Assembly (NCBI GenBank): GCA_022496805.1
Contig: CM040107.1
Span: 12,110,501 to 12,174,500, forward strand
Length of the DNA stretch: 64,000 nucleotides
Direction: 5' to 3'
Source of the DNA: Pohlia nutans
Taxonomy: Eukaryota > Streptophyta > Bryopsida > Bryales > Mniaceae
Shown: piece after piece, positions 1 through 61,127 of the stretch
Numbering within the stretch: position 1 is the first letter of the stretch
Layout of the letters: the number at the start of each line of letters is the position of its first letter
Translations under genes and position numbers: made by a program
Notes under the pieces: model-generated
The model's database searches: none
The model's input: the letters and a program-made list of their open reading frames with translations, nothing else
Told to the model about the DNA's origin: nothing

Positions 1-35
1 TGTGAGAGGAATGCACATTCACTTTGGGATGCAGT

Positions 36-56
36 TTTAGCTCGACTCGAGCTAAA
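36..56. repeat. Element A palindrome in intron after the methyltransferase-like exon
   Basis: This is a perfect 21-bp copy, arms TTTAGCTCGA and TCGAGCTAAA with central C. It lies just downstream (minus strand) of the donor at 91, hence inside the next intron. The same placement is seen in elements B and C. Confidence 0.85.
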
Positions 57-91
57 CAAATGATTGCAAAGAAAGGTGCAGAGGAACGTAC

Positions 92-1425
92 AATTCCCGC
101 CAGCATGGGCTTGGATCCCGCCATCATCGACAAAAAATTATCGTTGGGAAAAGAGAACATCTTCAAAACACGACAATAGAATTCCAAGCGCAGCTCCGTC
201 ATCCTCACGCCGAAGTCGTGTTCCCTGTACATACCGGCCTTCGAGTAGAGCGGCAAATCGGGAGCATAGAAAGTGGGCGGAATTCGGTCCAGGATATCGC
301 CCATATTGCTTCCCTTATTTACAAGAAAGAGCAACGGAACCATATGCTTCTCTAACACCTTACCCTCCGGGATACCATTCAGGCGCTTGTTACTGCATGG
401 CATATAATACGAAGCCTTGTGTGCATACTCATCCTTTATCTTGTTCGCGTATACAATGGCTTGGCACTGTCGATCAACGTTCTCGGTTATCCAAAGCCAA
501 ACGTGGGGGTTCTTCAGAGACGGGTCCGACACCGAGTCCATGTACGTATCAAGGAACTCCTTGAAGTAGGGATTCTCTGTATCATCCGATTTACTTCCAC
601 TGCCAGGAACACAACGAAGATCGATGATGCCAATGGCACACCTGGAGTCGCCCCATGCATAATCTCCGTCCCACGCGCCGAATTTAAACTCGGATGAGTC
701 GAAAAGCCGAGTGTGAAGAACCGGAGTTCGCGGCTCGAATGTCCCCTGGACATCCAGAAATATCTTGAAGAATTCCGCTGCGTACTCGGAAATCTCTTCC
801 ACCCTCTTATTCTTTGCCTTCTTCTGCCGATACGCGGAGAAGAAGGAATTACCCGGAACAGAGAGTAGCATCGCCATCGTCTGACGCGACAAATTGTAAT
901 CCACCTTGAACTGCTTCCACTTTTCTGCGTCAAAATTCCACTCGGAGTCGAACAACCCAAGCGACGGCTGCAGATTCAGCAACTCCCTGGCGACGGTGTC
1001 CTCTTCCGGTTGTCAAATCACTGCTTTGCAGACATGCAGTGGAAATAGTTCTTCGTGGGCTTTTTCACAGTCACCTTCGGATACTTCAATGTTCGACCGG
1101 GAGTCTCGTTCAAAAGATGCAATGCCATTATCTTCAAATCCCGCTCGGCCAGCTACCCCATCGCCTAAAAGAACTCCCGGTTCAAAGTAAATTTCTTCGA
1201 AGCTGACTCCCAATCCTTGGCCTGATTGAATTTCACTTCAGTATCGGGGTCGATCAACTCTCCCATTCCGTAATTGACGATGAACCTTGCCCACAACTGG
1301 TAGACCTCCTCATAAGAGGTAATAATGAGCAGCTCGTTCCGGAGGTCCGAAGGTCTGATAATTTTGTCCTTCGCGTTGTTCGTGTTGATGCTCACGAACC
1401 GCTTCACCATTGCAGCCGCAAATTC
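92..1425 (-). pseudogene. Methyltransferase-like half of element A ParB-methyltransferase gene, broken
   Basis: This is the second coding part of the minus-strand gene. The acceptor ACAG precedes GAATTT at 1425 and the donor GTACGT follows base 92. It aligns by eye with the same exon in elements B and C: a start with an EF dipeptide, a shared GELIDPDT block near 1250, a REFF block, then a C-terminal stretch ending in a glycine motif (FLSMMAGSKPMLAGI) immediately before the donor. In C the matching position reads like methyltransferase motif I. The exon has in-frame TAG, TAG and TGA codons between about 1170 and 1010 and a net frameshift, so it cannot make one protein as it stands. Palindromes sit in both flanking introns (36-56 and 1497-1517). 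A typical DPPY/NPPY catalytic motif is not visible, so the enzyme assignment rests on comparison with element C. Confidence 0.55.
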
Positions 1426-1496
1426 CTGTACCAATGAAACTGCTGTGAGAGAGTGCAGAACGACATGGCCATAAAAGCGGGGCTTCAAATGCAAAC

Positions 1497-1517
1497 TTTA
1501 GCTCGAGTCGAGCTAAA
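1497..1517. repeat. Element A palindrome in the ParB/methyltransferase intron
   Basis: This perfect copy with central G lies between the donor at 1601 and the acceptor at 1426 of the minus-strand gene. Elements B and C have their own palindromes in the matching intron. Confidence 0.85.
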
Positions 1518-1601
1518 CCATCCACGACCCTCCAGCCTTAATTAGAAACCAAATATAAGGGAGCGAGGGATGAAGTGTGGCTACGCCGGATCAATACGTA
1601 C

Positions 1602-3279
1602 CTCATAGTTTTTCCGATTTACTATTTCATCGGCCGATTCACGACCATGGGGCTTCTTCACCTTCAAAGGACGCCCATAGTCCACCCAAACACTCCTGGC
1701 CCCCATGATATTCGTTGCCCATGAAGGAGTGAAAATGCCAGCGTTGTTTGAAATGTTTGCCATTGCGGAAACTTCCATAATCTTGGCCGCCTTCTTATGC
1801 CAAACAACGTGAGCCCTCCATGTCTTCAGCGCTTTGATTTTTGCATCGTCAACTTTCTGATCACGGATCAACTCTTTTGCAGCTTCAACATGATGCTGCC
1901 CGTCGATGATCCGAAACCTACAAGACGAGTGCACTAGCTCATTCCAATCCCATTCCTCCGGCGCCTCGTCAAGAATAGGCATAATGCAAATTGTCTGCCT
2001 GCCACTGACGTCCACTGCATGGGTAAGGATATTCTTGTAGTGCGCTACTCCAGACGCCTGCAGCGATCGGATAATGTATCTCTCTTCCGCACGATCCAGG
2101 CGGTCGATGTCAACATCCACCGGCTTGTCCCTCCCAAAGATATAACAGTCGGCGCACTTCTCCCAATACTTTTGGAGTGACTTGCGGGCTTCCTCGTAAT
2201 CAATTTCTTTCTCGGTCACCGCCGCCTTCATAGTAGGATTCACGGAAGTCAGTGCGCTGTCACCCATGCTTCCTCTAGATCGTTTGGAGCCAGAACTGCA
2301 CGCATCTGGGTTCGGGCGCTTGTTACTCGGACCGCCAGGAATTGCTCCAGGTGTCCCCAAACCCGATCGAGCGGTCCCTGACGTAGACCTCGCCTGCAAT
2401 GCAAGCGAGCCGGCCTCCTGGATGATGCCTTTCCCTTTCGGCGTGCTTCGAATTCGGACAGTGACTTCCAAATCTGAGCAGTATACGGACTGTAGGACCT
2501 GACAAAGGCTTTTGGAGAGGTGAGGACGGGGAGTAACTTGGTCTCAAGATGATGAATTTGAGACGGCTCCGCCTTCCCAACCAAATATTCATGGACGAAA
2601 TTGTGGGAGAATCTGACTTCATTGGGCGGGAACACGATGGTGAATACATAAGTCGACACCTCGGACGTCTCGAACTTAACAAGGAGGTAGGCATCCTCAG
2701 ACGTCACGAGAGAAATATAAGCATCCAGACAGAGGGGAAGGAACGCCCCCCCATGCGCCCTAGACTGTTGATAGAAGAGAAAGTGGGTATTATCCTTGGG
2801 TCTAATTGACCACGACAGGATAGAATTCTGCTTGGGTATCCACAAGTTCCCCCATGTCTCAAAGTCCAAGGCAATCGGTCCAAGCGGGTAGGAGGTCTCC
2901 ACCCGGAAGATATCGAGAAAGCCCTCCAGAGTCCTCCTGTCAAATGACTCCGTCACCTGCAAAACAAATTATAGACATTGAACAAATTAGCTCGACTCGA
3001 GCTAAATTCAAACCACGAGCTCAATTATCGGTTCAAAGTAATCTGCCACGATATCAAGGAAATAACTTATTAAGCATCTATCAAATTAGCTCGACTCGAG
3101 CTAAACTGAGACCAGCAGATAGTATTAAAACAGAAAACCTGAACATGGCACCGAGTAGGACTTACATTAGGAACAGCTGGTTCCTCCTGCACTGCCATGT
3201 CGACTTCAGAGTCAGGCTCTCCAGCAGGAGGATTGGGGTCATCCCGAACGATTCTTGCACAAGTTGTTGTCCGTGCCAT
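1602..3279 (-). pseudogene. ParB/Srx-like half of element A ParB-methyltransferase gene (frameshifted)
   Basis: Exon 1 is 3279-3166 (starts MARTTTCARIV, donor GTAAGT after AAT). The next exon is 2956-1602 (acceptor TTTTGCAG, donor GTACGT after GAG). Phases fit, except that the second exon needs one frame change near 2460, where the reading moves from a frame ending at 2249 to a frame that starts before 2471. The C-terminal part holds the ParB-like core: VDVDIDRL, then SLQASGV, then FRIIDGQHHVEAAKEL, then AHVVWHKKAAKIM. That order matches ParB-fold proteins, in which the G-x-R/H-x-x-A loop binds nucleotide. A basic, serine-rich linker with KRPNPD and KRSRG may be a nuclear signal. In bacteria ParB-like domains are often fused to DNA methylases; here the methyltransferase-like exon follows across one intron. 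Confidence 0.6.
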
Positions 3280-4108
3280 AACTCTAAATCAGCACAATAT
3301 CAGGTACGTTAGCTTAACGAGCGATTTCAAGACATGTGACCAATTAGAAAACCATGTTCACAGGATATATCACATTTAGCTCGACTCGAGCTATAAAGAA
3401 AAACTCAAGGCTAAATCCACCGTCCAAAGCACGGACGGGCTTCAAAAACTATGACAAAGGATAATCAGCTTATGATGCTGCAATTCAAACGATTATGGTG
3501 AAGACATTTAGCTCGAATCGAGCTAAATTGATTATTGGCATGGTTGAATATTGTATAAGCGCAGCGCATTATACCCTTAGGAAAATCTTGTAGGAGATTC
3601 CGTTCGGCCTTTATCAATATTAAAGCATCTGGTACTACGAATTTGACAATATCTAACTCGAATCGAGCTAAATTGTCGATGAATAAATAATGTATAAGTT
3701 GTTTGTAAAGAAATCTTAACTTTCATAATCGGAATATACAGGAATAATCAAGTGCATTGCAGGATGGAAGCGCGGAATAAACTCGAGTCGAGCTAGATTC
3801 TTAGTTGATTTGGACTGGGATCCTGGAAAATTCAATGATAATATGCGACATTGTAGCAGAATTAGCTCGAGTCGAGCTAAATATCCATTCTGGCCTCGGA
3901 ATAATCGCAGTAATTGAACAAAACTTTGAATGAAATGCACAAATTTTAGCTCAACTCGAGCTAAACTGACACAGTCAGGGCCGAGTTACTGAAATTAATG
4001 GCATTTAAGTCTATGAATCTGATAATATTTAGCTCGAATCGAGCTAAATTGCTGAGGAATTATGTGCATTGAATGATGAGAGCGCAGAATTAGCTCGAGT
4101 CGAGCTAA
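2987..4108. repeat. Cluster of about 10 element A palindromes in the first introns
   Basis: Copies start at 2987, 3086, 3375, 3507, 3652 (imperfect), 3778 (imperfect), 3862, 3945, 4028 and 4090. The central base varies while the arms hold. Four consecutive centres, 3787, 3871, 3955 and 4038, are 84, 84 and 83 bp apart, close to eight turns of B-DNA. All lie in introns upstream of the ParB-like exon, between the leader exon ending at 4294 and the coding exons. Confidence 0.85.
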
Positions 4109-4129
4109 AATGGGAAAAATGGGGGAGAT

Positions 4130-4203
4130 TGAGCTAATACGGCATCGAGCTAAATGAGCATCGAGCTAAAACAACATCGAGCTAAATGTCTATCGAGCTA
4201 AAA
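4130..4203. repeat. Element A half-site array (TCGAGCTAAA)
   Basis: Five right-arm half-sites of the element A palindrome (GAGCTAA or TCGAGCTAAA) follow each other at about 14-16 bp spacing, without the matching left arms. They close the palindrome cluster on the promoter side. Element B has the same kind of half-site run at 22303-22345. Confidence 0.75.
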
Positions 4204-4293
4204 TTGTGCAGGCAGCAATGCAGAAAATTACAGAATCAAACGTCACACTTGCAAACATTGCCAATTCACAAAACATAGGGAAGAGTATCATAC

Positions 4294-4670
4294 CTGATAA
4301 CTTGCTGAGCAAATTGAAACTGATAGTACTAGCAAAGCTTGGTAATCTCCAGCTCTAGCAGACCTGAGCAGCGTGCACCTAAAACCCTAACTAGCGTGCA
4401 GCAATACCCTCACAAGCGTGGAGCAATACCGTAATCAGGGTGCAGCAATACCCTTAAGTAGCAGCAGCAATTCAGAATCTTGGTCTACAACCCTAAACCC
4501 AGATCAGCCGCAACAAAGCAAGAAGAAATAGGAGCGAGCGAATACGACCAAGCAGAACGAGCGAGAAGGAACACCGAGCGAATGCGAGCAAGCAGGAAGC
4601 GAGGAGCAGGAGCGAGCGAGCAGGAGCGAGCGAGCAGGAGAGAGCGAGCCAGCAAATGGGCTGTTGTGTG
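4294..4670 (-). other. Probable non-coding leader exon of the element A ParB-methyltransferase transcript
   Basis: On the minus strand this stretch is CTG/GCTCG-rich, contains telobox-like AAACCCTAA sequence, and ends at a good donor (ATCAG before GTATGA at 4293). Elements B (23557 upward) and C (40412 upward) have leader-like stretches of the same character in the same place. The 5' end is only a guess. The overlapping repeat-driven ORFs here are not convincing. Confidence 0.45.
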
Positions 4671-4829
4671 GCCACGAGAGTGACGATGCCCGTTCAGGCA
4701 ACTGCCCGCTTGGACGGGCGGGCACGAGCTGCCCAGGTGTACACGTGGCGGGGCGCGACTCGCTGTCGCCCGAGCACCCCTGCCCGTCGTACATCTGCCC
4801 GCAGTCGTCTCATTCTGCCCGCAGCCAGC

Positions 4830-5101
4830 GTGCATGGGGACCCCTCCCTCTTTTGAACTTCTCCTGTTGTTTGTCATGCCAGTTGCACCATTTCTCAGTG
4901 CGCGCTTAGTCTCCTCGCTCTTCCTCTGCTGCAATTTGTTACTGGGTTTCTACTTCGATTGTGCGCGCTATTGGAGTGCTACTCTTCCGTCGAGTTTGTT
5001 TTCTTGTTTGCACGTTAGTTTCATTGTGGTGGCACGGAGCGAATGCGACAGACAGGCTCACTTGCAGTTTCTGCAACTTCTGTTTGTCTCTCCCATATCA
5101 G
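4830..5101 (+). other. Probable plus-strand leader exon, divergent from the minus-strand leader
   Basis: A pyrimidine-rich stretch on the plus strand ends with CAG followed by a consensus donor GTGAGT at 5102. Together with the minus-strand leader this makes 4.2-5.1 kb a likely divergent promoter region. Further donor-like sites occur at about 5404 and 5482. The leader probably belongs to the B3 gene downstream. Confidence 0.4.
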
Positions 5102-5582
5102 GTGAGTGATTTTCAAAAACTCTTCATCAACTAGTTAATAGTATTATAGACGTTCTGTTTTTCTCTAGCAGTTCTGTAATCGCTTCAATTCGTGACTGTG
5201 ATTCATTGTCACTCTGTCAGTGAGTTCTTAATAATTATATTAGTAAGACTGTTTGAGTGAGCATTATTTTTGCAAATTGTTGACCGTCACTACTTTTATA
5301 GGTACTGGACGCTTGTTTTCTTTTGCTGATTCATCATGGTAATACTAATTGCTGTATGAAGCTGTAGTTGCAGGTCCCTCAATAGTTAGTACACATCTTG
5401 AAGGTAAGTTTGTCAAGACAGAACTAAGCACTGTCTCACCTTTGCACGTCAGTGAGTCTATTAGTGGATCATTGTGCACTAAGGTGAGTCTATAAGACTT
5501 CCAATTCCTGCTTCCTTTTATGTTTTCAATAATTCAGTTTGAGGGATTGTGGTCTGTTCACGTCTAGGACTGACGGTGTTCT

Positions 5583-5610
5583 TTTAGCTCGATATGGTTG
5601 TTTAGCTCGA
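5583..5610. repeat. Element A half-sites in opposite orientation (TTTAGCTCGA)
   Basis: Two left-arm half-sites start at 5583 and 5601, with a weaker third at about 5619. They mirror the right-arm half-sites at 4130-4203, so the divergent promoter region is bracketed by inward-outward half-site runs. Confidence 0.65.
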
Positions 5611-5963
5611 TGTCGTTTATTAGCTTGTTTTCTAATCTAATTTTGAAGTTTGTGTCTGTTTTTTGACTTGATTCAATTAATTTATGTCAGTTGCTTAAGT
5701 TTCTGAAGTTTTCGTTTCAATTTGGTAAGTTCTTATTAACTTGATGCGATACAGTTGAAAACCGTATAAGTGGTGTTATAGTAACACTTGTAAAGTATTT
5801 CAAAAAGGAAAATTGTAGTCTTTTCAGTCTGAGGGCAAATCTTAATCATTAGAATGTTTGATAATTATAAAATCGCCGGCATTGAATATGCAGGTACTAA
5901 GTATCATCGAGTGTGCACTCATTTCCAAATATTGTGTATAATTACCGTTGATTGTGAATAATC

Positions 5964-6769
5964 ATGACAACACCGTTTAGCATGCCAAACGGGGAGGGAA
6001 ATCCGTCCGCGACCAGATTTGAATGTCTACTCCAAGTCGCCACGGAGTTCTACAAAGAGTCCAGTCTCACGTTCTTCCACAAGACTGTCACCCGGTCGAT
6101 GGTCATGGCGCTTGTGAGCGGGCCGTGGGGCTTCAGCATGGTAACCCTAAACTCTGCCCATTTAGCTCGATTCGAGCTAAAACCCAATCTGCGCGATATT
6201 TGATTGTAGTACTTTGTCAATTCTGGTTGCAGGTTGATTTAGCTCGACTCGAGCTAAAACGCAAACTGCGCGAGTGTTTAGCTCGATTCGAGCTAAATCA
6301 GACTATTAATGCTGGACTTTTGTAAATGTTGTTTTAGTCGAGCAGTCCAGCTAAATGTCTGTCATTGGCTCTCTTGTAGGAGATTCCTTTCAAATTTGTC
6401 GAGGACTATGGGTCAAAATTCCGTGAGGACGTCACCTTTAGATTGGAAGGAGATCCTGCAAAATTCTGGCCAATTCGATTGACAGTAACCAAGTTTTTTA
6501 AACATCTGAGACGCTGCCGAGTGTTTGCCTATGGTCACAGTGGCCTGAAAACATTCATACTGGACACCAACATCCGAGTGGGCAATCACTTGTTCTTTTC
6601 TTTGAGGGCACACTCGGAGTTCCACGTGCGCATTTTGCGGAACCCGAGTATCGTGGAAAGCCCAATATGCAAAACGTGCGGGTTTGCACCCCACTACCCT
6701 CGATTCGTAGTCAACGTCGTTCAATGGCACTTATCCTTGACCCCGGACACGCCAACCGAGATGATATGA
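5964..6769 (+). CDS. B3-domain DNA-binding protein, first B3 domain (two exons)
   Basis: Exon 1 is 5964-6140 (starts MTTPFSMPNG, donor GTAACC after ATG). Exon 2 starts at 6380 after the acceptor CTTGTAG and runs in the same phase to TGA at 6767-6769, giving about 188 aa. The join produces LTFFHKTV, then EIPFKFVEDYG, VTFRLEG, FWPIRL, FILDTNIRVGNHLFFSL and FHVRIL. This is the usual strand order of a plant B3 domain (start near FFK, I-P-F, then N-x-x-x-GD/N-x-x-x-F). B3 domains bind DNA in the nucleus as transcription factors. The intron 6141-6379 holds three full palindromes of this element and one altered one. A second B3 exon follows at 6911 and the two may be one gene, but frame A ends at TGA before the donor at 6778. 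Confidence 0.6.
6161..6297. repeat. Three element A palindromes in the B3 intron
   Basis: Perfect 21-bp copies lie at 6161-6181, 6238-6258 and 6277-6297 with central T, C and T. A scrambled version lies near 6332-6354. All are inside the intron between the B3 exons. Confidence 0.85.
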
Positions 6770-6910
6770 TGACATTGGTAAGGCCCCCTATGAATTTGTT
6801 TTTGCAAATTATATAACTTTTAGTCAAACATTTGTAAAGGAAATAATATAATTATATTTCCTAAACTTTGAGATTTAAAAAAAAATTCCTTTATTATTAT
6901 TTTATTTCAG

Positions 6911-7228
6911 TTTTATTTCAGAGTGTTCACAATTTGGTCACCTACGTATGCGCAGAGGATTCCTGGACGATTTTGGGACTCGAATAGCCGCATGATTCAT
7001 GGAGACGAGGTCTACCTCCTTGGCCCAAAGAACATGGCCGTGATGGCGGTTAAATTGGAGCGCACAGCTCAGATATTAGAAGACAGCACTGAACTGAAGG
7101 TCACAGCGCGGTTGGCATCAGGGTGGGAGACCTTCGTTATCACCAATCAGTTGTGTGCGGGAGACATCCTCGAGTTTACTTTAATCAACCCGAATATGTT
7201 TAGGGTAGATGTCTTGGACCGTGTCTAA
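6911..7228 (+). CDS. B3-domain DNA-binding protein, second B3 domain (terminal exon)
   Basis: After a T-rich tract and acceptor TTTATTTCAG at 6910 the frame reads FYFRVFTIW, then RIPGRFWDSNS, GDEVYLLG, then ASGWETFVITNQLCAGDILEFTLINPN, FRVDVLDRV and a stop. The pattern IP-x-x-F, later GW-x-x-F-x-x-x-x-L-x-x-GD-x-x-x-F, is the classic B3 signature and stronger than in the first domain. The exon is about 105 codons, one whole B3 domain. It probably continues from the exon ending at 6777 (donor GTAAGG), which would make a protein with two B3 domains as in the REM group, though the frame across that junction is unresolved. Confidence 0.65.
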   Translation, partial: FYFRVFTIWSPTYAQRIPGRFWDSNSRMIHGDEVYLLGPKNMAVMAVKLERTAQILEDSTELKVTARLASGWETFVITNQLCAGDILEFTLINPNMFRVDVLDRV

Positions 7229-8998
7229 AACGTTTACTTTGAACCACGGAGTTTTTTTGGCATTCCTTTCTAGTCACAAAAGAGATTTTGGAACAAACAT
7301 TTCTCTTTACTATAGTTGATTGTGACCTACACATTTTGCAAATCTGACAATGAGTTGAAATTGCAGTACTCCTGTAATACTTCTTATTACAAGACCGTTT
7401 TCACTCAATGTGATACATACCGCTTTTATTCTAATGTACCACATTGTCTCTTTTTCCCACTATGATTGTCAAGTATTCAGCTATTTCCCACTATGATTGT
7501 CAAGTATTCAGCTAGTACATTCAGTGAGCATTTCCTTAAACCATATAAAGTAGAGGAATGAAAAGTATAATACTCATTTAATTATTTCATTGGCCCCCAT
7601 TAAATATGCATTGTACTCTCATAACTATAAAATCATCTAACATTTATACGAATTGACTTCCCCAAGGTTTAGGGTTGTACTGCACCCTAAACCACCATGT
7701 CTCATATTACTACTTTGTGCTAATTATAATATTATTAGTAATATCAATTATACTTGTTATATTAGAAGCTCGATTAGATATTCATAGCAGCCATATATAT
7801 TTGGAAATTCTATATTATGAACGTCAAACTTTGAATACTAAGAAATTACCATAAATTAAAAAAAAATCTATACACATACATGTTCAGTACAGTGCTCCAT
7901 TGAGGTTGTTAGTTTATACCCCAAACCTAAATTCTTATTGTCTAATTATTATTAGTTGTGCTAGTTATATTAGCAAAGTACTGGTTTAGGGTTTAGGGTA
8001 CAAAGATAACTTATTCATACAGTACTGAACAAGAAGTTATGAAAAGTAAATTTTTAGTAGCTACACGCATTTTTCTGGAACTATGTTTTTTGACTAGGAT
8101 TTGCAAATGGAAGAAATAAATACAAGTCCCTCGATTCCATCATCCAATTACAAGACCGAACACTAGACCACTTAATATGAAATGTAGTACCCTCTTCTTA
8201 GTACTATGGAACTATAGAATAACTATAGAATAACTATGTTCCGAAATGTCAAAATAATATTGTATATATTGTTCAAAATCGTAGTGTTATAAGAAATTAG
8301 TTTACATTTGTTTTTAGATGTGCACAGAAGTCGATCAAACTTTAATTTTATGAACTACTCATAAGCTATTCTACATTATCTTCAAAATAAATACATAAAT
8401 AAAAAGAATTTATGTATATGTTTATATACATATATATAGAGATACATAAATACATATATAGATATGTATAAAACATATATATATATATATATATATACAT
8501 ACTAGGACAATTGCGGAACCTCAGGTCATTTTAGAGAATAAGAGATAGTTAAAAAGAAATTGGAAAATAAGACTCAAGTGGATGAGAGGTTTTAGCCCCC
8601 TAATGAGGTCTTCCATAAATCAATGGTAGCTCAACCTCCCTGTCACAATGGTTATGGTTATTGCAGTTGCAGAGTCGATTAGCCCCCCCTATTTTTTCCT
8701 AGGTACAGTGTCTCAATAATACTCTATATATATTGTTCGAAATCGCAGTGTGATAAGAAATTAATATACATAGGTTTCTAGATGTGCACAAAAGTGAATC
8801 AAACTTTTATTTTATAAACTAGTTAGCATTGGGTATTCAACATTATCTTCAAAATTATTACATTACAAAAATAAAATATGTATATGTTTATATATACCTA
8901 AATATATATATATATATATATGTGATAGGCTTTCACGTGAATGGTTAGGAACAATTGAATTTTGCTAAATATTTATTCTATTTCAATGTACCGTAAAT
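7229..8998. other. Gene-poor AT-rich stretch in element A
   Basis: I see no credible gene. The stretch holds scattered telobox-like phrases (near 7670, 7990), (TA)n runs at about 8420-8505 and 8900-8922, and two diverged copies of a stretch mentioning GTGCACA near 8310 and 8780. Confidence 0.5.
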
Positions 8999-9000
8999 TC

Positions 9001-9178
9001 TAAATTCTAAAACCTAGACCCTAAACCCTAGACCCTAAACTCTAAACCTAGTCTAAAAACCATCGACATAATATTCTAGACTCTAAACCCTAGACCCTAC
9101 AGCGTAGACCCTAGACCCTAAACTCTAAAACCCGAAAACCCTAAACCCTAAAATCCTAGACCCTAAAACCCTGGTCAC
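9001..9178. repeat. Degenerate interstitial telomere-type repeat
   Basis: Many CCCTAAA and near-CCCTAGA/CTCTAAA heptamers follow each other. This is a decayed form of the plant telomere repeat. It lies just upstream of the C/T-rich leader at 9230. Element C also has such a tract (44888-44995) upstream of its plus-strand promoter. Confidence 0.7.
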
Positions 9179-9229
9179 TAAGCATTAATTTCACTAAGTT
9201 AACAGATCTTCCTTTACTGCGGGCACCTT

Positions 9230-9660
9230 ATGTCAGTCATTGGTGTCAGGAACACCTTTTCCCGCGGATTTCTCTGTTGGCGCCATTTGCTCCTTCCGAT
9301 TTTTTGTTCGCGCCATTTCTTTTTGCTCACCCCCGTCCTCTGTGCTTGGCCTCTAGCCTCCGTCCTTCACTTCGGTCCTGTCTGCTTGGCCTCCGGCCTC
9401 CGTCCTTCACTGCGGTCCTGTCTCCTTGGCCTCCGGCCTCCGTCCTTACTGTTCTGCTGCCTTCACTGCGGTCCTCTGCCTTTTGCCTTTCCCCTTCGGC
9501 CTCCGACCTTCACTTCCGGCCGCGCGTACTGTCTAGGGTCTTCAGCTTCGTCCTTTCCCCTTCGGCCTCCGACCTCCGTCTTGCACCTCTAGCCTCTAAC
9601 CTTCACTTCTGCCTTTACCCTAACACGCGGGCGACTGTTTTCTTCCTGCTGATTCTACTG
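9230..9660 (+). promoter_or_regulatory. C/T-rich promoter or leader region of element A putative transposase gene
   Basis: The stretch is made of imperfect tandem phrases of the type GGCCTCCGGCCTCCGTCC, strongly pyrimidine-rich on the plus strand, in an otherwise AT-rich region. The open frames through it are repeat-driven. Its place ahead of the palindrome cluster and the transposase exons mirrors element C (leader at 45.7 kb). I could not fix a transcription start or a donor. Confidence 0.35.
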
Positions 9661-9814
9661 TAGTGGGATTCTGCTGTTATCAAATTTTGATTAGCTCAGT
9701 CGAACTTATTTCAGCCGAATCTGATAGCGTGCACGATTCCCGAGGAGCCTGTCAGGACTCCACGGTGCACTGCACAGAATTCGAGGCAGATACTAATACC
9801 AGACAGATGTCAAT

Positions 9815-10702
9815 TTAGCTCGAGTCGAGCTAATCCGTATATGACAACGATAGGGTATCTGTTTCGCAACGTCATTAGCTTGCATTTCATTAGTTTGACC
9901 AACTTGCAATCTATAGGGTTTTTGAATACCCTTATCTTGGTCCATTTATTTAGCTCGAGTCGAGCTAAATGGTACTTCAGCCCCGAGTTTCATCAACAGA
10001 GAACTGTATAACTAAGATCATCAGCTAGCTATAATGTTTATCATGACGTGGTGATTCCTCACTCGAGATAGCTGTCTGTTTAGCTCGAGTCGAGCTAATC
10101 CCTGGATGTCAAAATGGGCTATTTCAACCAAACCGTAGTAATCCTGAATTACAGTAGTTGACCAACTACGGTTACATAATACCGTTCTTGTGGTAACTCA
10201 ATTTAGCTCGAGTCGAGCTAAATGGTACTACAGGTACGAGAATCGTAGAGAGTTCAGCAGTAAAGCTACGAACTACTGTTGATACAGTTTTTATATATGA
10301 TGCGGTGACTGAGGTTGCCCCTAAACTTAAAATTAGGCGATAGTTTCCTGTCGACGACAAGACTTTTACAATTAGCTCGAATCGAGCTAATTCGCTCAGT
10401 ATAGCCGATATCATTTCATTGTCGATGATTGATGATAGTTCTCTTGAGTTTTGTCAGAAGTTTTAATACAGGCAGGTTTAGGCCTGTAGCCTCCTGACTA
10501 TTGTTTAGCTCGATTCGAGCTAATTCAACATTATAAACTATCTGCGAGTTATGCCCGTCTACTAATTATTTTAAATCTCATGTCTACTCTCACATAAACT
10601 TATCCGAGTGGAAATCTCGTGTCCGGAATGTATTTTGAATACGTTCCATCTTATTCAGTACTGTAATCTCAGTGATAATCTCTTTAGCTCGAGTCGAGCT
10701 AA
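9815..10702. repeat. Seven element A palindromes upstream of the transposase gene
   Basis: Copies start at 9815, 9949, 10080, 10202, 10372, 10505 and 10684, each with intact 9-10 bp arms and central G, G, G, G, A, T and G. Spacing is about 120-180 bp. They lie between the leader and the first coding exon at 11.05 kb, most likely in an intron. Confidence 0.85.
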
Positions 10703-11058
10703 TTTAAGTTAAGGTTGTTCACGGTTTATTTGAAATTATAGAGCGGAGCGTTGTATTGCAAGCATTGATTTAATCAGTTTCTATAACTGAAGTGGTGCAT
10801 CAACTTGTTTGACATGTGATTTCTTACTTCGTTTTGTCGTTGCCTTGTAGATATTTTTCTCGGTCTACATGTTGGTCCTGCAGTACTTGCGAACATTCTC
10901 TTATGGAGTCGAGTGCATCTGATGGCGAATTGGATTTTAACTGTGTTTCATTGGAGGCATTTCATCTGTCCTAAACCTTTTATTTCATTCATGTTATGTA
11001 ATAATCCACAGTTCGTCTGCCTAAGTGTCTGAGACATCATTGTTTGGTGTAACAGGAG

Positions 11059-11529: not shown

Positions 11530-11595
11530 ATATGCTGCAGTAAAAACTGTTGCCAGCCTTTCCCTTGGGAGAAAATTATTGCTCTTCGGAAGCAG

Positions 11596-13851: not shown

Positions 13852-13888
13852 AATGACGGTTACTAGTTTATCTTATCTAGTTTTGCAA

Positions 13889-17139: not shown

Positions 17140-17187
17140 AACTCCTATATCTTGATGCTGGGGATCCCCGTGAAACTGGAAGCAAAA

Positions 17188-45660: not shown

Positions 45661-45671
45661 GCGGAAATGAA

Positions 45672-45679
45672 TATAAAAA
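45672..45679 (+). promoter_or_regulatory. TATA box of element C plus-strand gene
   Basis: TATAAAAA is followed after about 25-30 bp by a CT-rich stretch typical of a plant transcription start, then by the CTG-rich leader. Confidence 0.5.
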
Positions 45680-45704
45680 TCACACTCTCTCCCGCTAAAT
45701 TTCT

Positions 45705-50100: not shown

Positions 50101-50470
50101 TAATCCCTGGCGCCAGATCGCCGCTCTGTGGTGGGTCCTTCTCACACCTGAAAACCTAGTAGTGTGTCCTGTATGGCTGGGAAGGGCTATGTCTCCAGTG
50201 TGTAGGGATGAAGGGGATGATAAATATGGAAAGTTGCTTATCCAGTATTGGGAGCCCCAGAACGCAGCACGAGATATGGCTAAGAAGTATCAGAATTGCT
50301 GGTCAGCTAAGTGGGTTGTGGAGGCCCGCCATCCTGAATGGATCGACGTTGCTGCTGTCTTGTACGCGTCTTACTCTAGGATCGCTAATCCAAAGTCACG
50401 TACCATACCCAAGAGGGATAAAGCTCGTGCGTTAGACAACTTGACAAGAGCGAACATTACAGATCCCTGA
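47150..50470 (+). pseudogene. DUF7869-like putative transposase of element C, broken by in-frame stops
   Basis: The gene is collinear with the element A transposase. From MASGSGSNYESTS it runs to TAA at 47390, continues to 47683, then (different frame from about 47770) NAEKCCSLRCCQVFPW near 47938 and a 740-bp open stretch to a donor near 48411. After acceptor GACACACAG at 48540 it reads CVIHDKMDTAKTALP, stop TAG at 49037, YLQLDNSAKDNKNQF, LLVGHTHEDIDAYF, stop TGA at 49640, and an open frame to 50470. The D, LDN-NKN and HTHEDID blocks are all kept. Stops lie between conserved blocks in one frame, so it is a young relic or needs recoding. The intron holds a perfect palindrome at about 48440-48457. 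Confidence 0.6.
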
Positions 50471-52764: not shown

Positions 52765-53780
52765 TGAGAACTTTGTGTTCTTCTTTTTAGGCGTTCTTAT
52801 TCTATCCTGCATCTGATGTTCTGAAGAGTATCAGTGGATCGCCCCATGTTGACAGGATAGTTGAGTTTTGTATTTGTAATGGACTAAGTTTCCTACTTTG
52901 GATCGGGAGATCGACCCATGGGAACCGGCGACCTGCTGTGGCGGTTGTTTTTTTAGTTCATTACTCTTTAAGCAGATCTTCTAGTAAGAAGAAGTCATTT
53001 TCTCGTACCGTGTCAATGAAGCTGGTGCATGGTGACTGGTGTCTGTGTTTTCGTTCTCAGGAATTCTTTTATCATCCTGCATCTGATGCTCTGCAGAGGA
53101 TCGGTGGATCCCCCCATGTGATCTAGATGCTGGACTTCTGTATTCTTCATGCACTAAGTGTCCTACTTAGGACCGGGGAATCGACCTATGTGTAATATTT
53201 CCATTTGATATTTCACAGAGTATCGGTGCACCAGATCGGGGGGTCGCCCCATGTTTACAGGGAGCTCGACAGATGTGCTGGGGCGTTTTATTTTTTAATC
53301 CTGTTATTGGAATCGATACTTTACATTCTCCATTTTCACACGTAAGATAAGCAAGCGCAATTCATTATAGTCTCGCTGTTTTAGACTCTCTCTATTTCGA
53401 GACACTCTCCTCCAAGTATAATCAATCATCGGGGGATCTCCCCATAATTCTCTGAATGTTATATTATTATCTTTAAGTTAAGCACACATTTACTAAAGTA
53501 TTTCAGAAATCAATGTATCGGCTAGAAGATCTTGGTGCCCATACTGAATTGAAAAATTTAAGTAATTTGAAAAATTTTACTCTGAATTTTCAAGGTTTAG
53601 TAAGCGCAAACTCCTTCAATCCTATTTTATCGGGGGATCCATCGATATATTATGGCTGCTTGTTATTCCTGGACTCTGGACTGACTATATTTAGTTAAAT
53701 ACCGCATTTTCTTCAACCACTACCGAATCGAAATGATACATATTTTGAACGTCCGGTATGAATGAAGACCTTTACACTCC

Positions 53781-53802
53781 ATAAGTATCGATGATTGATA
53801 TC
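53781..53802 (+). repeat. Exact 22-bp direct repeat, copy 2
   Basis: Identical to 29089-29110 in the same orientation, about 130 bp beyond the last palindrome of this block. Confidence 0.8.
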
Positions 53803-56256
53803 GAAGTATTAATAGCACGTTCTCCAGGTTTTTTTTCATGCATTCTTATAAAACTTGATAGCAAAATCCGCAAAAAATAAAAAACCTTAAAGTGCAGGAT
53901 AAAACGATCTATCTTGCTATGCAATCATAAAACATTAAAATAATATGGAATTGACGATTCAACACTTATCATGCAAGTAAAGGTTTTAAGTATTTTCAAA
54001 GCAATTACAACATAATTATACTATACTCGTTATGTCTAAAGGATTTTCAATTCAAGAATTTATTGACAATTTATCTCGAATCGAGCTACAGTGCACCCAT
54101 TGAATGGGTACTTCACTTAAACTGAGCAAAACAACCAATCGTTTAACTTTTCAAGTAGCCATGAATTATTCACATGTTGTTCAAATTGGGCATATGAGGT
54201 GTATTTTGACATGTTCCTTAAGATGTTTCTGTTGACAAGGGTGACCAAGTTCTTGCAAATCCTTGCAGAACTTTAATGTTGTCAATAAAGCATTTAACGT
54301 ATTCATAGTACTTACTACTTCACTGTTCTCTCATTTTCAACATTTAATTTCTTCTCATACGACTATTGAATGAATGCATTAATTAAATTATTAACTACAG
54401 CAAATATTGTACTTTAAATTTTTTAAACATTATATCGCGCTAAAACGCGTGCATTAATTTTAAATTCTCATGAATTTTAGTAGTTCACATTATTTGCAAC
54501 TTGTAAGGTTTGTTATTATAAGTCGTTGTACATAGAGTTCTAATTAAATATAACTTGGTACCAGTAAAAAATTACGCTAGTGCTGAAATTTAAATTTTTT
54601 ACCAAATTATTCATTGTTAATTCATTCGATGACTTCAATTTTCTCATGCATTCTACATATTTAATGTAATTACAACTTGTACGTTACTCCATTTTCAACA
54701 TATAATTTGCTTCATTAAAACGTTTTAATTTTTTAAATGCATTAACTACAGCAAGCCCCGTACTTTATTTTAATTAAAGCTTATGAATTATATAAACAGT
54801 GGCGTAAATTTAAAAGTTCTCATGAATTTTAAATGTGCACATTATTTTCATATTCCCAAATTCTTGAAATTTTCCCATTACAATGAATATGCTGGTTAAC
54901 TCTACGAACCATGAATTCTTTCAAGTCACTTATTCATGCAATATCTTCTAAGAATAGAGTCAAGATTTGACGAGAAGCAGTTTATTGTTTATCAGCTCGG
55001 ATTTAACAAACCCCTTGCGCACCACCGTTGTCGCTAGGACGAGGGTCTTTTCAAAATATAAAGCTTTTTTTGCAATTAGGGAAGCACTTCGGCACTCAAT
55101 GAAGTAAGCAACTTGCGTTTTGCCATGGCATGATGAATTACTAATTTCTGTCGTAGTCATGATCGAACAGTTAATGCAGCCTTCTTGTTAATTCTCTAAA
55201 CTATTTCATCTTAGTGTTTTTATTTTGTTCAAAACTATCAAATCAAATCAAACTATCAAATTAAACTATCACGTTTATATCTATAATTATTACGTACATA
55301 TTCGAGACTGGTCGGATAGTGTCAGACTTGATATTTATATATGGTACTATGAAACGTAATATATATACATATTTATAATAATTTATCTTTATAAATTATT
55401 GATAGTACAATAAATATGTACATTATTATAATTATTTATCTATATAAATAGATAAATAATGTACATTATTTATTGTACTATCAATAATTATTTAATAATT
55501 ATCTATATTGTCTAATGTATTGTAAATATTGTAATAGTATATTAAATTATAGTACATTATGTATAATAATATAGATTATATAATAATTATTATATATTAT
55601 GTATAATAATATATAATGACATATTATTATAATGACATATAAGTCAGGCTATAATCTATATTATTATAATGACAGATTGATTCAAACTAACCTCTGACAG
55701 ACTTATTATATATATATTCTATGATATAATTAAAACTAATATCAAGTTTTTTATTTAAGTCAAACTAACCTCTGACAGACTTATTATATATATATTATAT
55801 GATATAATTATATATATATATATTATGTATACTAATATAGATTATTTAAAATATAGTACATTAATTATAGTACATATTTTATATTATAATATGTCTAATT
55901 ATAACATATTAAATAATTATACTATATGTCTAATTATAGTATATTATAGTATATATAAATGTCAGAATTATCAATAGTCAGAATTATTCAAATATGTACA
56001 TTATTATAACATAATTATTATATATGTACCATATATAATAATTCAGACTATTTATATGTATATATTATACATATAATTATTTATCTATATAAATTATAAT
56101 TTATTTAGTCATATCTATAATTTCCAGGGCTTGTATTTATCTATAATTTCCAGGACTTGATATTTATATATGGTCGGACAGTGTCAGACTTGATTATTAT
56201 AGATACAAATTAAACTATCACGTTTATATCTATATTATGTGTGTATAATGTTAGTC
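53803..56256. other. Gene-poor AT-rich stretch and TA-rich satellite
   Basis: No supported gene. From about 55270 to 56230 the DNA is a TATAATTAT-type low-complexity tract with local direct repeats (CTCTGACAGACTTATTATAT at about 55692 and 55770). One isolated element A-like half palindrome (ATCTCGAATCGAGCTA) lies near 54072. Confidence 0.5.
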
Positions 56257-56344
56257 GCCTATGCACATACTTGCATATAAAGTGCAACATATTCATGCAG
56301 TTGGTGACGAGGTAGCTAACCCCACTACACCGACCTCAATATAG

Positions 56345-57193
56345 GTGGAGCGAGTGGCACAGAAGAGGAAATCTTCATCCGTAACAATTGACGTCGGTGC
56401 ATTGCAAGGAGTTGCGGGTGCCATCGAAGGTCCTACGCTACGCTCAGGAGCTGCCCCTGTGCTCGGTTCCAACCAGATTGTATCATCAAGTAGACAGGAT
56501 GCTTCACAATCACAGGGCGGAACGATGGCAGAGTCTCTCCTTAATGAAGGGGATGCCAATGTTGAAGCTTGTGTTCAAGGGCAGTCACTGGATATGGAGG
56601 GTGGAGTGCCTAAAAAAGTGAAGACTGTGGAGGGGTCATCGGGGGATCTCCCCATAATACTCTCTAGCAACTCTCCTCCGTCAGGCGAAGAAGATGATGT
56701 TGTGGGCCAGGCAGAACCTCTGGACCCATGCTTGGTGGACTCTATGCATGACCTCGACAGAATGAGTCCTGCTCACGATCCTGACACTGCGCATCCTGAT
56801 GCGCCTAATACTCCAAATCAAAAGAGTCGGGATGACCTGTCAAAGATAGACTCTAGCATGCCTGTAGAAGAAGTCATCCAAGACACAGATGGTCCAGATA
56901 CAATATCGGGCGGTGGCCCGATAGGTCCTATGGAGAAGGACGTACCAGCGGAAGATGGAGTTGGTGGACTGGAGGAATCTTCTGGCAAAACAATGGATTT
57001 GCAACACATCCAAGACGACGTCGTCGAAGATGGTCCAGATATAGTATCGGGCGGTGGCCCGATGGGTCCTATGGGGAAGGACGATCCACCGAAAGATGGA
57101 GTTGGTGGACCGGAGGAATCTTCTGGCAAATTATTCGTGTTGCAGCATGCTGCGGAGATGGAGCAGGACGCCACAGCTCTTCTTGTAGGCTGA
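56345..57193 (+). pseudogene. Truncated copy of the disordered repeat protein (right arm)
   Basis: The frame matches the left-arm ORF from ERVAQKRKSSSVT on, but has only two 141-bp repeat units and stops after LLVG because the C-terminal coding part is deleted. The splice acceptor AG just upstream is kept. Confidence 0.65.
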
Positions 57194-57233
57194 CTTGTAA
57201 ATGTGACTTGCATTAACAATTATTGGTTCCCAG

Positions 57234-58112
57234 GGGGAGCACTTACTCGATGTAAACACCCTATCGGGGGGTCGCCCGATCTCAGGTGCTGCACCAAGTG
57301 CAGTTAGGCCTGTTGAAGAGGTGAAATTGTGTAATGATCCCAACGGTACGTAGTTTTTGTTGAATACCTGCATGATATTGCACATAATTTCGGCATCTTT
57401 TGTTACCTTGCTCATTCATCCTCCCCTATCCCAATGTTGTTGTCTCAAGCTTTTTGATTTATTGCAGGGAAACTCCCAAAACCAGTTATTGGGCCCACAC
57501 TCCCAGAAGAAAAAACCCAGGTACTGCCACCGCAATACATAGTTGTGATTGACTTGAATGGGGTCCTCTGTTCTAGAAGCCCCTTTGAAATGGGTAAGAA
57601 GCGGATAATACATCCTAGACCTGGTTGTGCGGAGTTCTTGAATTTTGTTAATAGCAATGCAAAAATCGTCATATGGAGTTCCGCCAACATGAAGAATGTT
57701 ACGAACATGGTCAATGAGACCACCAAGGGTTGCTCCTTCAACCCACAGGAGCTTCTTCGGCTAACCCAAGCTGATTGCACGGACGCGGGAATCGTGGTCG
57801 GTGAAAAGAATCCGCTGTATCTCAAGGATCTAACCGTAGTGCAGAGGCGTCTGTCGTTAAGTACTACTGATCATAGTCTATTAGTGGACGATACTCCCAC
57901 GAAGTCTGTCCTGAACGTGTAGCATGGTGCAATCCACCCTCCAACTTGGAAGGATGACCAAGCTGATACGTTCTTAGACTCCGTCTTGAGGCCTTGGCTA
58001 CAAGGCCTATTCGAGTCAGGATTATCAGTTAAAGATTATGTGAAGACCAATCCGCTTACAGATGGCCAGCAGATCCCGTCAGAGGAGGTTGTTCAGAAGA
58101 TTTTGAAATCCT
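57234..58112 (+). pseudogene. FCP1/NIF-type HAD gene, right-arm copy with premature stop
   Basis: Exons 57234-57345 (again 112 bp) and 57468 onward match the left-arm gene. Motifs DLNGVL, IVIWSS, CTDAG and LLVDDTPTKSVLN are intact, but TAG at 57920 follows VLNV where the left arm has AAG. After the stop the frame continues collinear to about 58112, where it ends a few codons early. Confidence 0.75.
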
Positions 58113-58121
58113 AAGTAGGAA

Positions 58122-58325
58122 GTGATGTGGTTTGATAAATGTAATTGGGCTCTTGTGCAGTTTTTGAAGACCAATCCGCATACAGATGGCCAGCAGATGT
58201 CGTCAGGGGAGGTTGTTCAGACGATTTTGAAAACAGTAAGTAGGAAAGTGATGTGTATTGATAAATGTAATTGGGCTCTTGGGCAGTTTTTGTTGAAAAT
58301 TTTAGTTTTTGTTACGTGTGTTTAG
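58122..58325 (+). pseudogene. Duplicated tail segment of HAD gene, right arm
   Basis: Same tandem tail duplication as 31806-32009, nearly identical, so it predates the arm duplication. Confidence 0.5.
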
Positions 58326-58369
58326 TACTTTGAACTAAGAAGCCTGAGCTAGCGAGGCCACGGACGTCG

Positions 58370-58969
58370 CTGGGGCGATCCCCCGATGGCTTTACTGTTG
58401 TTTATTCATAGCTGCATTTTCTTGGGTTTCGCTAACCCCTGCCGGATTGTGTCGCCGCTTCCCTACATCGGGCGATCCCCCGATATGTTAAGTGGTCCCT
58501 ATCCTGGAACAATAATTTCATACCTAGGTGTGAGCTTTACTCCTAGTTACACTTCTTAGGTTGTTGACCATGATCATAATCATAATGCTGTCCAACAAAT
58601 GTGTAAGCCTTTTTTTGGGGAGTGTAACAGAGAATGCAGATGCATGAAGACCACTATTTAAGGAGATCTTTTAGTTTTAATGAATGTTATGTGCATTGAG
58701 AACTCTGTAGTTATTAAGTGATTAGGTTTAAGAATTCTAATTGCCCCCTCTTAGAGTTTTTGTTACAAGCTTTGGTATTTGTCACTATCAAATCTTAGTT
58801 TACGATTGAGTCTATAATTTCCAGGGCTAAGTGAAAGAGGACGGGATTGTCGATGGGGCGATCCCCCGATAACGTCACTTCTAGTCATTTACTCTTTTGA
58901 TTCTTCTTAGACTTCGGTGACTCCTCCCGAATTTAGTGGTCGCTCCGGTACATGGGGCTATCGCTCGAT
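58370..58969. repeat. Four element C palindromes in the right arm
   Basis: Copies at 58370-58387, 58467-58484, 58853-58870 and 58952-58969 match positions in the left arm (31744, 31647, 31261 and the altered site near 31160). Confidence 0.8.
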
Positions 58970-59030
58970 AAGTTTCGTGGTACCCATCGTGGAAAAGTAT
59001 TTTTCCAAATAGGTATCTCGTTTTATTCTA

Positions 59031-59266
59031 AAAGTTATTGTCATGTTTGGAAGTCATGTTTGAAGTGTTCTTTTAAGTAGGTCAAGAAAATACTTCCTGG
59101 TGGCTAATTTTATTATGGTTGCAATGAACATATGCAATGTTCATTAATCATTCTAGTGACATAATTTGGAACCTTTTTAATCATGTTTCTTACAATATGA
59201 TCAATGAAATTGACTCAAAGAAATACCAAGCATACAAGTTTGACAATATGTTTGGGACGGAGGGAG
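59031..59266. mobile_element. Stowaway-like MITE remnant in right arm
   Basis: Matches 30857-31093 inverted. The right end TTTGGGACGGAGGGAG with TA is intact; the left terminal repeat is lost. Confidence 0.7.
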
Positions 59267-59616
59267 TAAATATATTGGTTACGTTGTTCTGTGTCTCGCC
59301 GTAGCATAATGTTGTTTTATTTTCATTTTTGTGCAATGCTTAATGGAATGAATTTTATAGATGATAGGTTGATTGCGTAAACCAATTGTAGGGAGTTTGA
59401 TTGGGCATGCAGATGCATGATCACCACTATTTTAATAAGTCTAAGAGTTTTATACAGAGGAATGAAGCTGAGCACCGTATCGATGATACAAATACTTGCT
59501 TTTTCCTCAAACTTACTAGTATAGTGCGGAGTGTCTGCATACATCTTCCTATCACAATTTCTGAGCAGATATCTTCTGCTTTTTTTTTTTTTTGAAGTTT
59601 AGGACAGTGGGATATA

Positions 59617-60318
59617 TTGAACCACTCGGTCTCAGAGGATTGGGCGATCCCCCGATATTCTTCTGCTATTGTAACTCTTTACGGAATTGTTATCACGTTA
59701 ACACTTAGCATCGACTTCTTGCAGAATGTGATTGTGTTTTCGGTCAACGGTGTACTTTGCTTCGAGGATTACGAGGGCATCAACCCTGCGGTGTTCGACG
59801 TTAAGAGAATCCGTCGACGTCCTGGACTGCATGGTTTTTTCCGGAACTTCCTGAACTACTTTCGTATCGGCATCTGGTCTTCGATGCCTGCTGGACGACT
59901 CCAGCATGTTATTCAATTTTTGCTGCCACAGGACATTACCTCACAACTATTATTTGTTTATGGACGAAATAAGTGCCATAACCCAAACTGGTACCCTTAC
60001 TGCAAGAAGCGGATTCAGCGCCTGACGAAAGATTGCAGGACTCGGGAAATTTGTCGTCCGGATCGTATATTGATGGTGGATGACTGCCAATGGAGGAATA
60101 GGCGGAATGGTAACCTCTGCTGCTATTTTCTGAGGTCCTGGAAAGGGGAGGGGGAGTTTTCGAATTCTCGGATTGTCATTCCAAATATCTCTACAGCGTT
60201 GCTGCCTTTTATTATGCCTCTTTTATCCTATCAAAGTGTTAGTCAATTCCTCTTGAAATCTGAGATGGATGGGAAATTCCGTCGCCGACTCTTGCGGGAG
60301 GCTAGGCCGCACTTGTAG
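59617..60318 (+). CDS. HAD-like protein 2, right arm (element C)
   Basis: Inverted copy of 29925-30551. A coding exon begins at 59725 after CTTCTTGCAG with NVIVFSVNGVLCFEDYEG and continues RRPGLHGFFRNFLNYF, IGIWSSMPAGRLQHVI and RILMVDDCQW. It has WSS where the left arm has WSL, so at that position this copy is closer to the family form. Motif I lacks aspartate in both copies. Open for 233 codons. Confidence 0.5.
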   Translation: MNHSVSEDWAIPRYSSAIVTLYGIVITLTLSIDFLQNVIVFSVNGVLCFEDYEGINPAVFDVKRIRRRPGLHGFFRNFLNYFRIGIWSSMPAGRLQHVIQFLLPQDITSQLLFVYGRNKCHNPNWYPYCKKRIQRLTKDCRTREICRPDRILMVDDCQWRNRRNGNLCCYFLRSWKGEGEFSNSRIVIPNISTALLPFIMPLLSYQSVSQFLLKSEMDGKFRRRLLREARPHL

Positions 60319-61127
60319 TCTATATGTATAGATGGAATCGACGCTCATGGCAGTCATTACAACGACTACATAGCTTTTGACGGCTTTCTCGGGGGATCCC
60401 CCGATAGTTCGTTGATGGCATGGATGGAGATGTCGACCATTCAAAATTTGTACAATTTATTGCCCCTTTATTCCAAGCGGGGATGTTGTCATATATTCAA
60501 TTGAAATTCTTAGTTTAAAGCCTTCTAATTGAATACTGTTACTGAGTGAGGTTTATAATTTGCTTTCCTAACTCCTTTAGTCAGAATGCAATGGTACTTG
60601 TCACTTTTATTTAGCAAATTGTTTCAATTCACTTTAGAGTATAATAATTCTATGTAGAATAATTTCACAATTCCTTATCTTTAAAGCATGTACTTCTTCA
60701 ATTCGAACACTCGTTTCCCTCATGTCCTTCAATTACCATTGCTACATGTTATACTATGAATCGTCCAAATATTACTAAGAGGACATCGGGGGATCCCCGT
60801 ATTCTGGAAAGAGCCATTACATAGTCAATTTGTTACAATATTTCTTCGTATACACTGTTTTTTCAGTTTGATCTCGTGTATTATTATGTCATTAGTCCTA
60901 TTTTTTGTAGGAAATCGGGAGATCCCCCGATCCCTTGCACCATGTGCAGTCCAGAATTGACGCCAAAGTCCATATTTAGTTATATATCGCATGGAAACAA
61001 GAAGTGCTATACATTTGAGAACGTACACGTCAAAGTTGTATGAAATGTTATGATGAAGTATTTTGTTTTTTGTTGAAACAATTAAAATTGAGTTTAGAAA
61101 GTTGCCTATCCGATTTTCGGATGAGGG

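Follow-up and report, generated by a model that had tools for sequence, protein, structure and literature searches.

A ParB-pseudomethyltransferase gene and private palindrome families in three mobile-element blocks of moss-like DNA

VANC of the Arabidopsis VANDAL elements is paired with short family-specific motifs in the element's own non-coding, often tandem DNA, and protein and motif are described as diverging together (PMC5735166). Transposons of brown, green and red algae have already been reported to carry ParB-methyltransferase accessory genes. The one in the giant transposon Sola1-1_Ec32 of Ectocarpus, located on the opposite strand to the transposase gene, encodes a protein of about 1100 aa with ParB-like and N4/N6 methyltransferase domains; this protein was proposed to bind the element that encodes it (PMC12477816).

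Analysis of a 64,000-nt stretch of DNA (the window) revealed three blocks of mobile-element DNA, which we have designated A, B and C, each with one short palindrome family. In its working the system would be most like VANC, as both have an element-coded protein, family-specific motifs in the element's own non-coding DNA and joint divergence. The motifs described here are strict palindromes, unlike those of VANDAL, and in the transposase-like genes DUF7869 was the only above-chance Pfam match, with no MULE transposase found; the likeness between the proteins is one of published description. As in the algal gene, the product of element C has ParB followed by methyltransferase (1071 aa, minus strand) and DUF7869 is encoded on the plus strand. 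Compared by description, it differs from the algal case in its moss-like DNA, its DUF7869 and NIF neighbours, its absent catalytic motifs and its named candidate palindromes, which are not mentioned in the available part of the algal description (PMC12477816). The preliminary description of this DNA had held that no plant element like this was described; this has to be limited, ParB-methyltransferase accessory genes being known in algal transposons (PMC12477816). As those genes are known, the moss-like elements are treated here as a variant of that kind with candidate sites and a pseudo-enzyme.

Block A (1-14100) contained 21 cores of the family TTTAGCTCGA-N-TCGAGCTAAA and block B (15600-22400) contained 13 cores of the family TTCAACTCGA-N-TCGAGTTGAA. 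All 57 sites of the third family, ATCGGGNGATCNCCCGAT (≤2 mismatches), were in block C and none were in A or B. The dyad was perfect, with a centre of 0-1 base. The families were unequally distant; A and B have the core CTCGA-N-TCGAG in common and differ at two arm positions, whereas C is unrelated. A search of the window for this core gave 35 occurrences, comprising 21 in A, 13 in B and a single stray A-like core inside C at position 54075, with none between 22400 and 29170 or after 60995. The base pair beside the core was G/C at 19 of the 21 A sites (two mixed, no A/T) and A/T at 11 of the 13 B sites (two mixed, no G/C). Twenty first-order Markov simulations gave a chance expectation of 0.05 cores (mean) and no C-type sites. 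Apart from the one stray core, counts and simulations agree with the earlier view of three private families with essentially no mixing. The A palindromes extended from 36 to 14056 (the cores lay between 41 and 10698, followed by a 28-bp half-site array at 13900-14056), and the B palindromes from 15646 to 22336, where variant and half sites accompanied the cores. Palindromes of C lay 5′ of its ParB gene (38652-39744) and in an array (46490-47131) upstream of its DUF7869 gene; this array had 13 palindromes, 48-73 bp apart (mostly 48), of which 11 had ≤2 mismatches and two had 3. Site arrays were located upstream of the DUF7869 genes of both A and C.

Visible ends were found for C only, A and B being unbounded. 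The extent of C was revised to about 29170-60993 (~32 kb), flanked by inverted repeats of ~5 kb, whose ungapped columns comprised 4545 matches and 243 mismatches. The left terminal inverted repeat (29170-34660), pieces of which were 90-98% complementary and in register, encoded NIF-like genes on the minus strand (29925-30572 and 32006-32674; NIF 4.7e-5 and 5.3e-18) and a repeat ORF (32957-34663). The NIF genes were mirrored in the right repeat (56255-60993), and no perfect target-site duplication was found at 29170 / 60993. The putative DUF7869 transposase of C (47737-50470, plus strand; 2.9e-38), delimited from ORFs and its match to A, had in-frame stops at 49037 and 49640. A frame change near 48520 was re-read as a likely intron (about 48391-48517) because a palindrome was located there. 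The long inverted repeats and the DUF7869 gene support C as a mobile element. The putative DUF7869 transposase of A (11053-13851, plus strand; 1.3e-41) had one in-frame stop, at 11527, where an 89% identical relative (P0001) was open. Four aspartates of DUF7869 (D416, D538, D578 and D580) were near-invariant, each present in 65 or 66 of 66 sequences. Element A also contained B3 gene pieces (6380-7228, plus strand) with two B3 DNA-binding domains, whose Pfam scores (E 3.7e-5, 24 bits; E 5.7e-7, 29.9 bits) were both below the curated cut-off of 30.1, and B encoded a NIF/SCP-like phosphatase-fold gene (15893-16696, minus strand; Pfam NIF 1.8e-9). Rfam and tRNA scans gave no matches, and the viral contigs had none for DUF7869, the methyltransferase profile or the A palindrome.

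A collinear gene with ParB-like and methyltransferase-like parts was present in all three blocks, on the minus strand. The A copy (1-2968) was clipped by the window start and decayed by in-frame stops and frame changes; its ORFs (2-1012, 1165-1497 and 1581-2543) matched the exons of B, and a relative 86% identical over 297 columns (P0122) was open through these stops and frame changes. The B copy (17423-21431) consisted of a ParB exon (21431-19989), a methyltransferase exon (19851-18484) and a tail exon (about 18130-17423), with three in-frame stops within exons (20399, 20219 and 19068). Among the three, only the C copy (34915-38577) was open, in a GT-AG model of three exons (38577-37201, 36910-35528 and 35370-34915); palindromes were found in its first intron (36953, 37005 and 37116) and its second (35394 and 35437). 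The ParB exons of B and C were clearly related (BLASTP 7e-6, in a tiny set; hhalign 5e-7), and the methyltransferase exon of C matched the others weakly (hhalign E 0.001, probability 21%). With this weak match and the clipped A copy in mind, the earlier statement that each block holds the same gene was borne out. A search of residues 1-930 of the C protein against 5.8 billion proteins gave none at E 0.001, perhaps because relatives there are split into exons.

The structure prediction proposed in the preliminary description was made on B. A structure search of the ParB model, which was poor overall (pLDDT 44) and fair at about residues 297-426, supported a predicted ParB/sulfiredoxin fold. The ParB assignment was taken from this fold search and not from sequence matches, which were weak (phrog_1033 ParB-like E 0.033, DUF6551 0.054, DndB 0.095) and were rejected as a basis for the label. 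Foldseek alone gave no match at E 0.001 for either the ParB or the methyltransferase model. GERRxRA is the CTP-binding box of CTP-dependent ParB; at this position six aligned sequences read G-Q-H-x-V-x-A, and GERRxRA was absent. The predicted protein is like bacterial ParB, Noc and KorB with their parS-like sites in its ParB N-terminal fold and the palindromes near its gene, and unlike them in having GQHxVxA for GERRxRA, no ParA gene in the families found, and dozens of sites.

The relatives of the protein formed 110 protein clusters, including one from Physcomitrium patens and one from a cyanobacterial bin. Two further open loci on short contigs (L001 and L002), chosen by protein alone, had their own variant, TCAGCTCGA-N-TCGAGCTGA. 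In the relatives' translated intron tails, whose anchor was present in 84 of the 110, palindrome type followed the protein. The tail peptides from frame 1 (LDSS, LESS) were not used to label the tree, as A-type sites in this frame terminate in a stop, which biases the count; 11 of the 41 tree rows were labelled "other". Protein tails cannot separate TTTAG from TTCAG arms, and the tail label "A" denotes G/C beside the core and takes in P0154 and P0159 (L001 and L002). The A/T label alone was weakly clustered on the tree (22 of 500 shuffles as low). As a control, 79431 residues of DUF7869 proteins gave 11 tail-peptide matches, of which eight fell in a single conserved stretch of coding sequence and one, in P0038, lay 5′ of the gene. 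Site type was shown to track protein lineage across the small number of lineages covered, and the claim that palindrome and protein diverged together holds at L001 and L002 as well as in the intron tails. Given the few families, this co-variation may be plain common descent.

From these sequences we infer that the palindromes are the sites of the fusion protein. The elements would be DNA transposons of mosses or close kin, C being a giant of about 32 kb, that encode a putative transposase of the DDE type (DUF7869) together with a protein in which a ParB fold is joined to a methyltransferase fold that is dead. This protein would most likely bind, as a dimer, the palindromes in the promoters and introns of its own element's genes, coating that family's DNA; as site and protein change together, each family would act on itself alone. 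The likeliest use would be self-specific control, whereby element genes stay open despite silencing by the host, as with VANC in VANDAL elements; alternatively, the DNA may be gathered for transposition. We put the probability of this account as a whole at about 0.55. CpG observed/expected ratios were 0.76-0.92 in site-bearing parts and 0.69-1.09 elsewhere; the elements were not set apart from their flanks, and the ratios thus lend no support to escape from methylation.

Any other protein of the element, for example the DUF7869 transposase, could be the binder, with the ParB gene merely travelling along. CACTA subterminal repeats are TNPA binding sites, and the arrays upstream of the DUF7869 genes, the core-like peptides upstream of P0038 (a DUF7869 relative) and the distance between the A and C DUF7869 proteins (at best 43% over 197 residues) would fit such a binder. 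We nevertheless consider it unlikely, as sites occur throughout the elements, including introns and places distant from the ends, as block B, L001 and L002 have the ParB gene and sites with no DUF7869 gene in view, and as ParB folds read palindromes in bacteria.

The methyltransferase part of the B model had a predicted beta-class amino-methyltransferase fold, with motif IV before motif I, which the structure search supported. The catalytic [DNS]PP[YFW] was found in none of the 110 relatives (some partial) nor in the C protein; the matches of a looser pattern, in P0158 and P0178, were outside the motif column. Of the 110, 90 had a D-[FL]-R-like motif and the remaining 20 were mostly partial; in 54 of 55 aligned rows motif I had the altered form GxK. 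The domain was under purifying selection (dN/dS 0.083). With the catalytic motif missing, an intact methyltransferase was rejected, and the chemistry seems to have been lost from a domain that is still conserved. METTL14/MTA9-type pseudo-methyltransferases have a role as non-catalytic amino-methyltransferase folds; METTL and MTA chains were among the fold matches and the fold is likewise kept without the catalytic motif, but here it is ParB-fused and inside a transposon, with no catalytic partner seen. The preliminary description inferred self-marking. A version in which the protein binds its palindromes and methylates its own element, giving N6-methyladenine or N4-methylcytosine, would be favoured by this DNA amino-methyltransferase fold and by the same pairing and proposal in Ectocarpus Sola1-1_Ec32 (PMC12477816). 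The lost catalytic motif leaves marking by methylation without support and makes it very improbable; the evidence supports self-recognition instead.

Passive repeats, arising by gene conversion or slippage and private because each family is old and separate, would account for many sites being spaced in tandem (at 141, 48, 28 and 16 bp). Palindromes in the terminal repeats of C, some within an ORF (33420-33984), were not significantly slower to change than their surroundings (6 of 198 against 199 of 4505 columns differed, p 0.47), as such repeats would predict. However, with the terminal repeats of C (24 of its 57 sites) left out, none of 67 tested sites lay in exons, 12 were in introns and 46 were upstream of six genes at distances of up to 1.3 kb; these upstream windows were chosen after the arrays had been seen, and exon limits were approximate in A, B, L001 and L002. 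The same intron placement recurred at five loci, both arms changed symmetrically, and 26 of 28 arms retained the L001/L002 word at a dS of ~1, leaving passive repeats little chance of being the explanation. RNA hairpins acting in introns or untranslated regions, for example in splicing or RNA stability, would suit the palindromes found in each of the two introns modelled for the fusion gene but are highly improbable given the upstream majority and a perfect dyad, which fits double-stranded DNA.

These results suggest that the elements recognise their own copies, perhaps escaping silencing. Tentatively, a bacterial ParB-parS-like module may have been turned into a self-recognition code, in which ParB with a conserved dead methyltransferase reads private palindromes and shields or opens chromatin, protein and code drifting together until families become orthogonal. 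The ParB-methyltransferase kind is extended into moss-like genomes, and the function proposed for the algal proteins gains concrete targets, with several candidate sites matched to several protein lineages; the chemistry expected of them changes, as the enzyme domain is conserved yet looks inactive. The elements would be a second, unrelated VANC-like case of transposons that distinguish their own DNA from any other, and would be a source of orthogonal palindrome-reading proteins.

Each of the three mobile-element blocks A, B and C was confirmed to carry a gene with a ParB-like and a methyltransferase-like exon, and the claim of the preliminary description that every block has one palindrome family held with a single stray. 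The CTCGA-N-TCGAG core occurred 35 times in the window, with 21 copies in A, 13 in B and the stray at 54075, and all 57 ATCGGGNGATCNCCCGAT sites (≤2 mismatches) were inside C. Markov simulations gave a mean of 0.05 CTCGA-N-TCGAG cores and 0 C-type sites. The base pair beside the core was G/C in 19 of the 21 A sites (arm consensus TTTAGCTCGA) and A/T in 11 of the 13 B sites (arm consensus TTCAACTCGA), the remaining two being mixed in each block. The stray core was A-like with T/C flanks and lay within an AT-rich stretch of C.

Two further contigs, L001 (CADCWO010000243.1) and L002 (CADCWO010000269.1), were found by a protein-profile scan of prokaryote genome contigs; palindromes played no part in the choice. 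Both are filed in the cyanobacterial metagenome assembly AVDCRST_MAG81, encode eukaryote-type spliced genes and are apparently contaminating plant DNA within that bin. Open ParB, methyltransferase and tail exons were present in both. The idea that this gene type has its own palindrome family was replicated here, as CTCGA-N-TCGAG was the most repeated family in L001 (6 cores) and L002 (8 cores), with TCAGCTCGA in 26/28 arms. This variant differs from A and from B and is common to the two loci, whose proteins are sisters (dS ~1; dN/dS 0.045 for the ParB core, 0.083 for the methyltransferase domain). L001 additionally contained a single A-type half site and L002 a single B-type one; a search of both contigs for a C-type site revealed none.

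A profile of the methyltransferase exon built from two sequences yielded 110 relatives, and because their ORFs often continue beyond this exon, the translated tails reveal the next intron. The tails (1708 residues) contained 17 peptides of the A-/B-type core coding kind (15 and 2) in 13/84 proteins; 0.16 were expected from shuffling, 0 were found in reversed tails and 1 in 31626 coding residues. Another tail peptide, SxRxDL, occurred 18 times in 15 proteins (P0162, P0199 and 13 more up to P0230) that together form one side of a branch. Read from these peptides, this clade is suggested to have a further palindrome type, approximately TCxxxTCGA-N-TCGACTTGA. On a 41-row tree, one change suffices for the G/C versus A/T types and the labelled groups jointly took 8 changes versus 21 in shuffles, to which near-copies contribute; the three A/T rows by themselves were only weakly clustered (22/500 shuffles as low).

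Placement was analysed for 67 sites, namely those of A and B together with those of C between its terminal repeats. None was exonic (p = 4.9e-6, 1.4e-6 and 1e-5 for exon avoidance), 46 lay ≤1.3 kb upstream of six genes, in windows chosen after the data were seen, 12 were intronic and 9 elsewhere. In each of A, B and C, the fusion gene has sites in both of its modelled introns. At L001/L002, 0/14 sites were exonic (exon limits approximate), with one site in each of both introns. Unlike these 67, several sites in the C terminal repeats were inside a repeat-coding ORF, and arm-versus-arm divergence there gave no evidence that sites are constrained (3.0% in sites versus 4.4% outside, p 0.47). Gene fragments in A (6380–7228) that encode two B3 DNA-binding domains had three A-type palindromes directly upstream (6166–6292).

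Among A, B and C, only the C fusion gene was open (exons 38577–37201, 36910–35528 and 35370–34915; 1071 aa). C is flanked by inverted repeats of ~5 kb, with arms in pieces 29261–34652 and 56257–60906 (4545 matching and 243 mismatching ungapped columns); its two ends showed no perfect target-site duplication. Within C, the AT-rich stretches 39750–46480 and 53650–56250 contained no C-type palindrome and are perhaps nested insertions; the former includes plant telomere-like CCCTAAA repeats (~44880–44997). Direct repeats (24307–24463 and 25913–26069; 93% identical, ~1.6 kb apart) were present in the AT-rich DNA separating B from C. NIF/SCP-type phosphatase-fold genes accompany the ParB gene, being located downstream of it in B and C and also in L001 (5170–6024; Pfam NIF 2.4e-14). 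Those in the window were at 15893–16696, 29925–30572, 32006–32674, 57458–58111 and 59596–60318. The expected first motif of such phosphatases is DxDxT; because it is replaced by DLNG (32006, 15893, L001) or SVNG (29925), their enzyme activity is doubtful.

DUF7869, the putative transposase gene, is on the strand opposite the fusion gene in A and C, with in-frame stops in each. Organism names accompanied 7 of its 120 listed relatives, all Physcomitrium patens or Ceratodon purpureus, which is the basis for the term moss-like used here. DUF7869 may be a Sola1 transposase, since a table in PMC9033089 includes Physcomitrella among the Sola1 hosts; no mention of DUF7869 was found in the open-access collection searched. 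The available sections of PMC12477816 describe Sola1-1_Ec32, a 21.5 kb Ectocarpus transposon encoding a 1104-aa ParB-like and methyltransferase protein opposite its transposase, suggest self-binding and self-modification for that protein, and cite green and red algal cases of ParB-methyltransferase proteins. On those sections, this kind of transposon gene is already known from algae and the moss-like version is a variant of it; among the open-access matches listed, none was a moss ParB element.

On the most economical reading, the fusion protein would bind DNA as a dimer, in a sequence-specific manner, and recognise its own family. Its apparently dead yet conserved methyltransferase fold would fit a scaffold role, comparable to that of METTL14 beside METTL3. 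Sites in promoters and introns would suit a role in regulating the genes of the element itself; going by the available part of PMC5735166, the closest tested parallel is VANC, the anti-silencing protein of Arabidopsis VANDAL elements.
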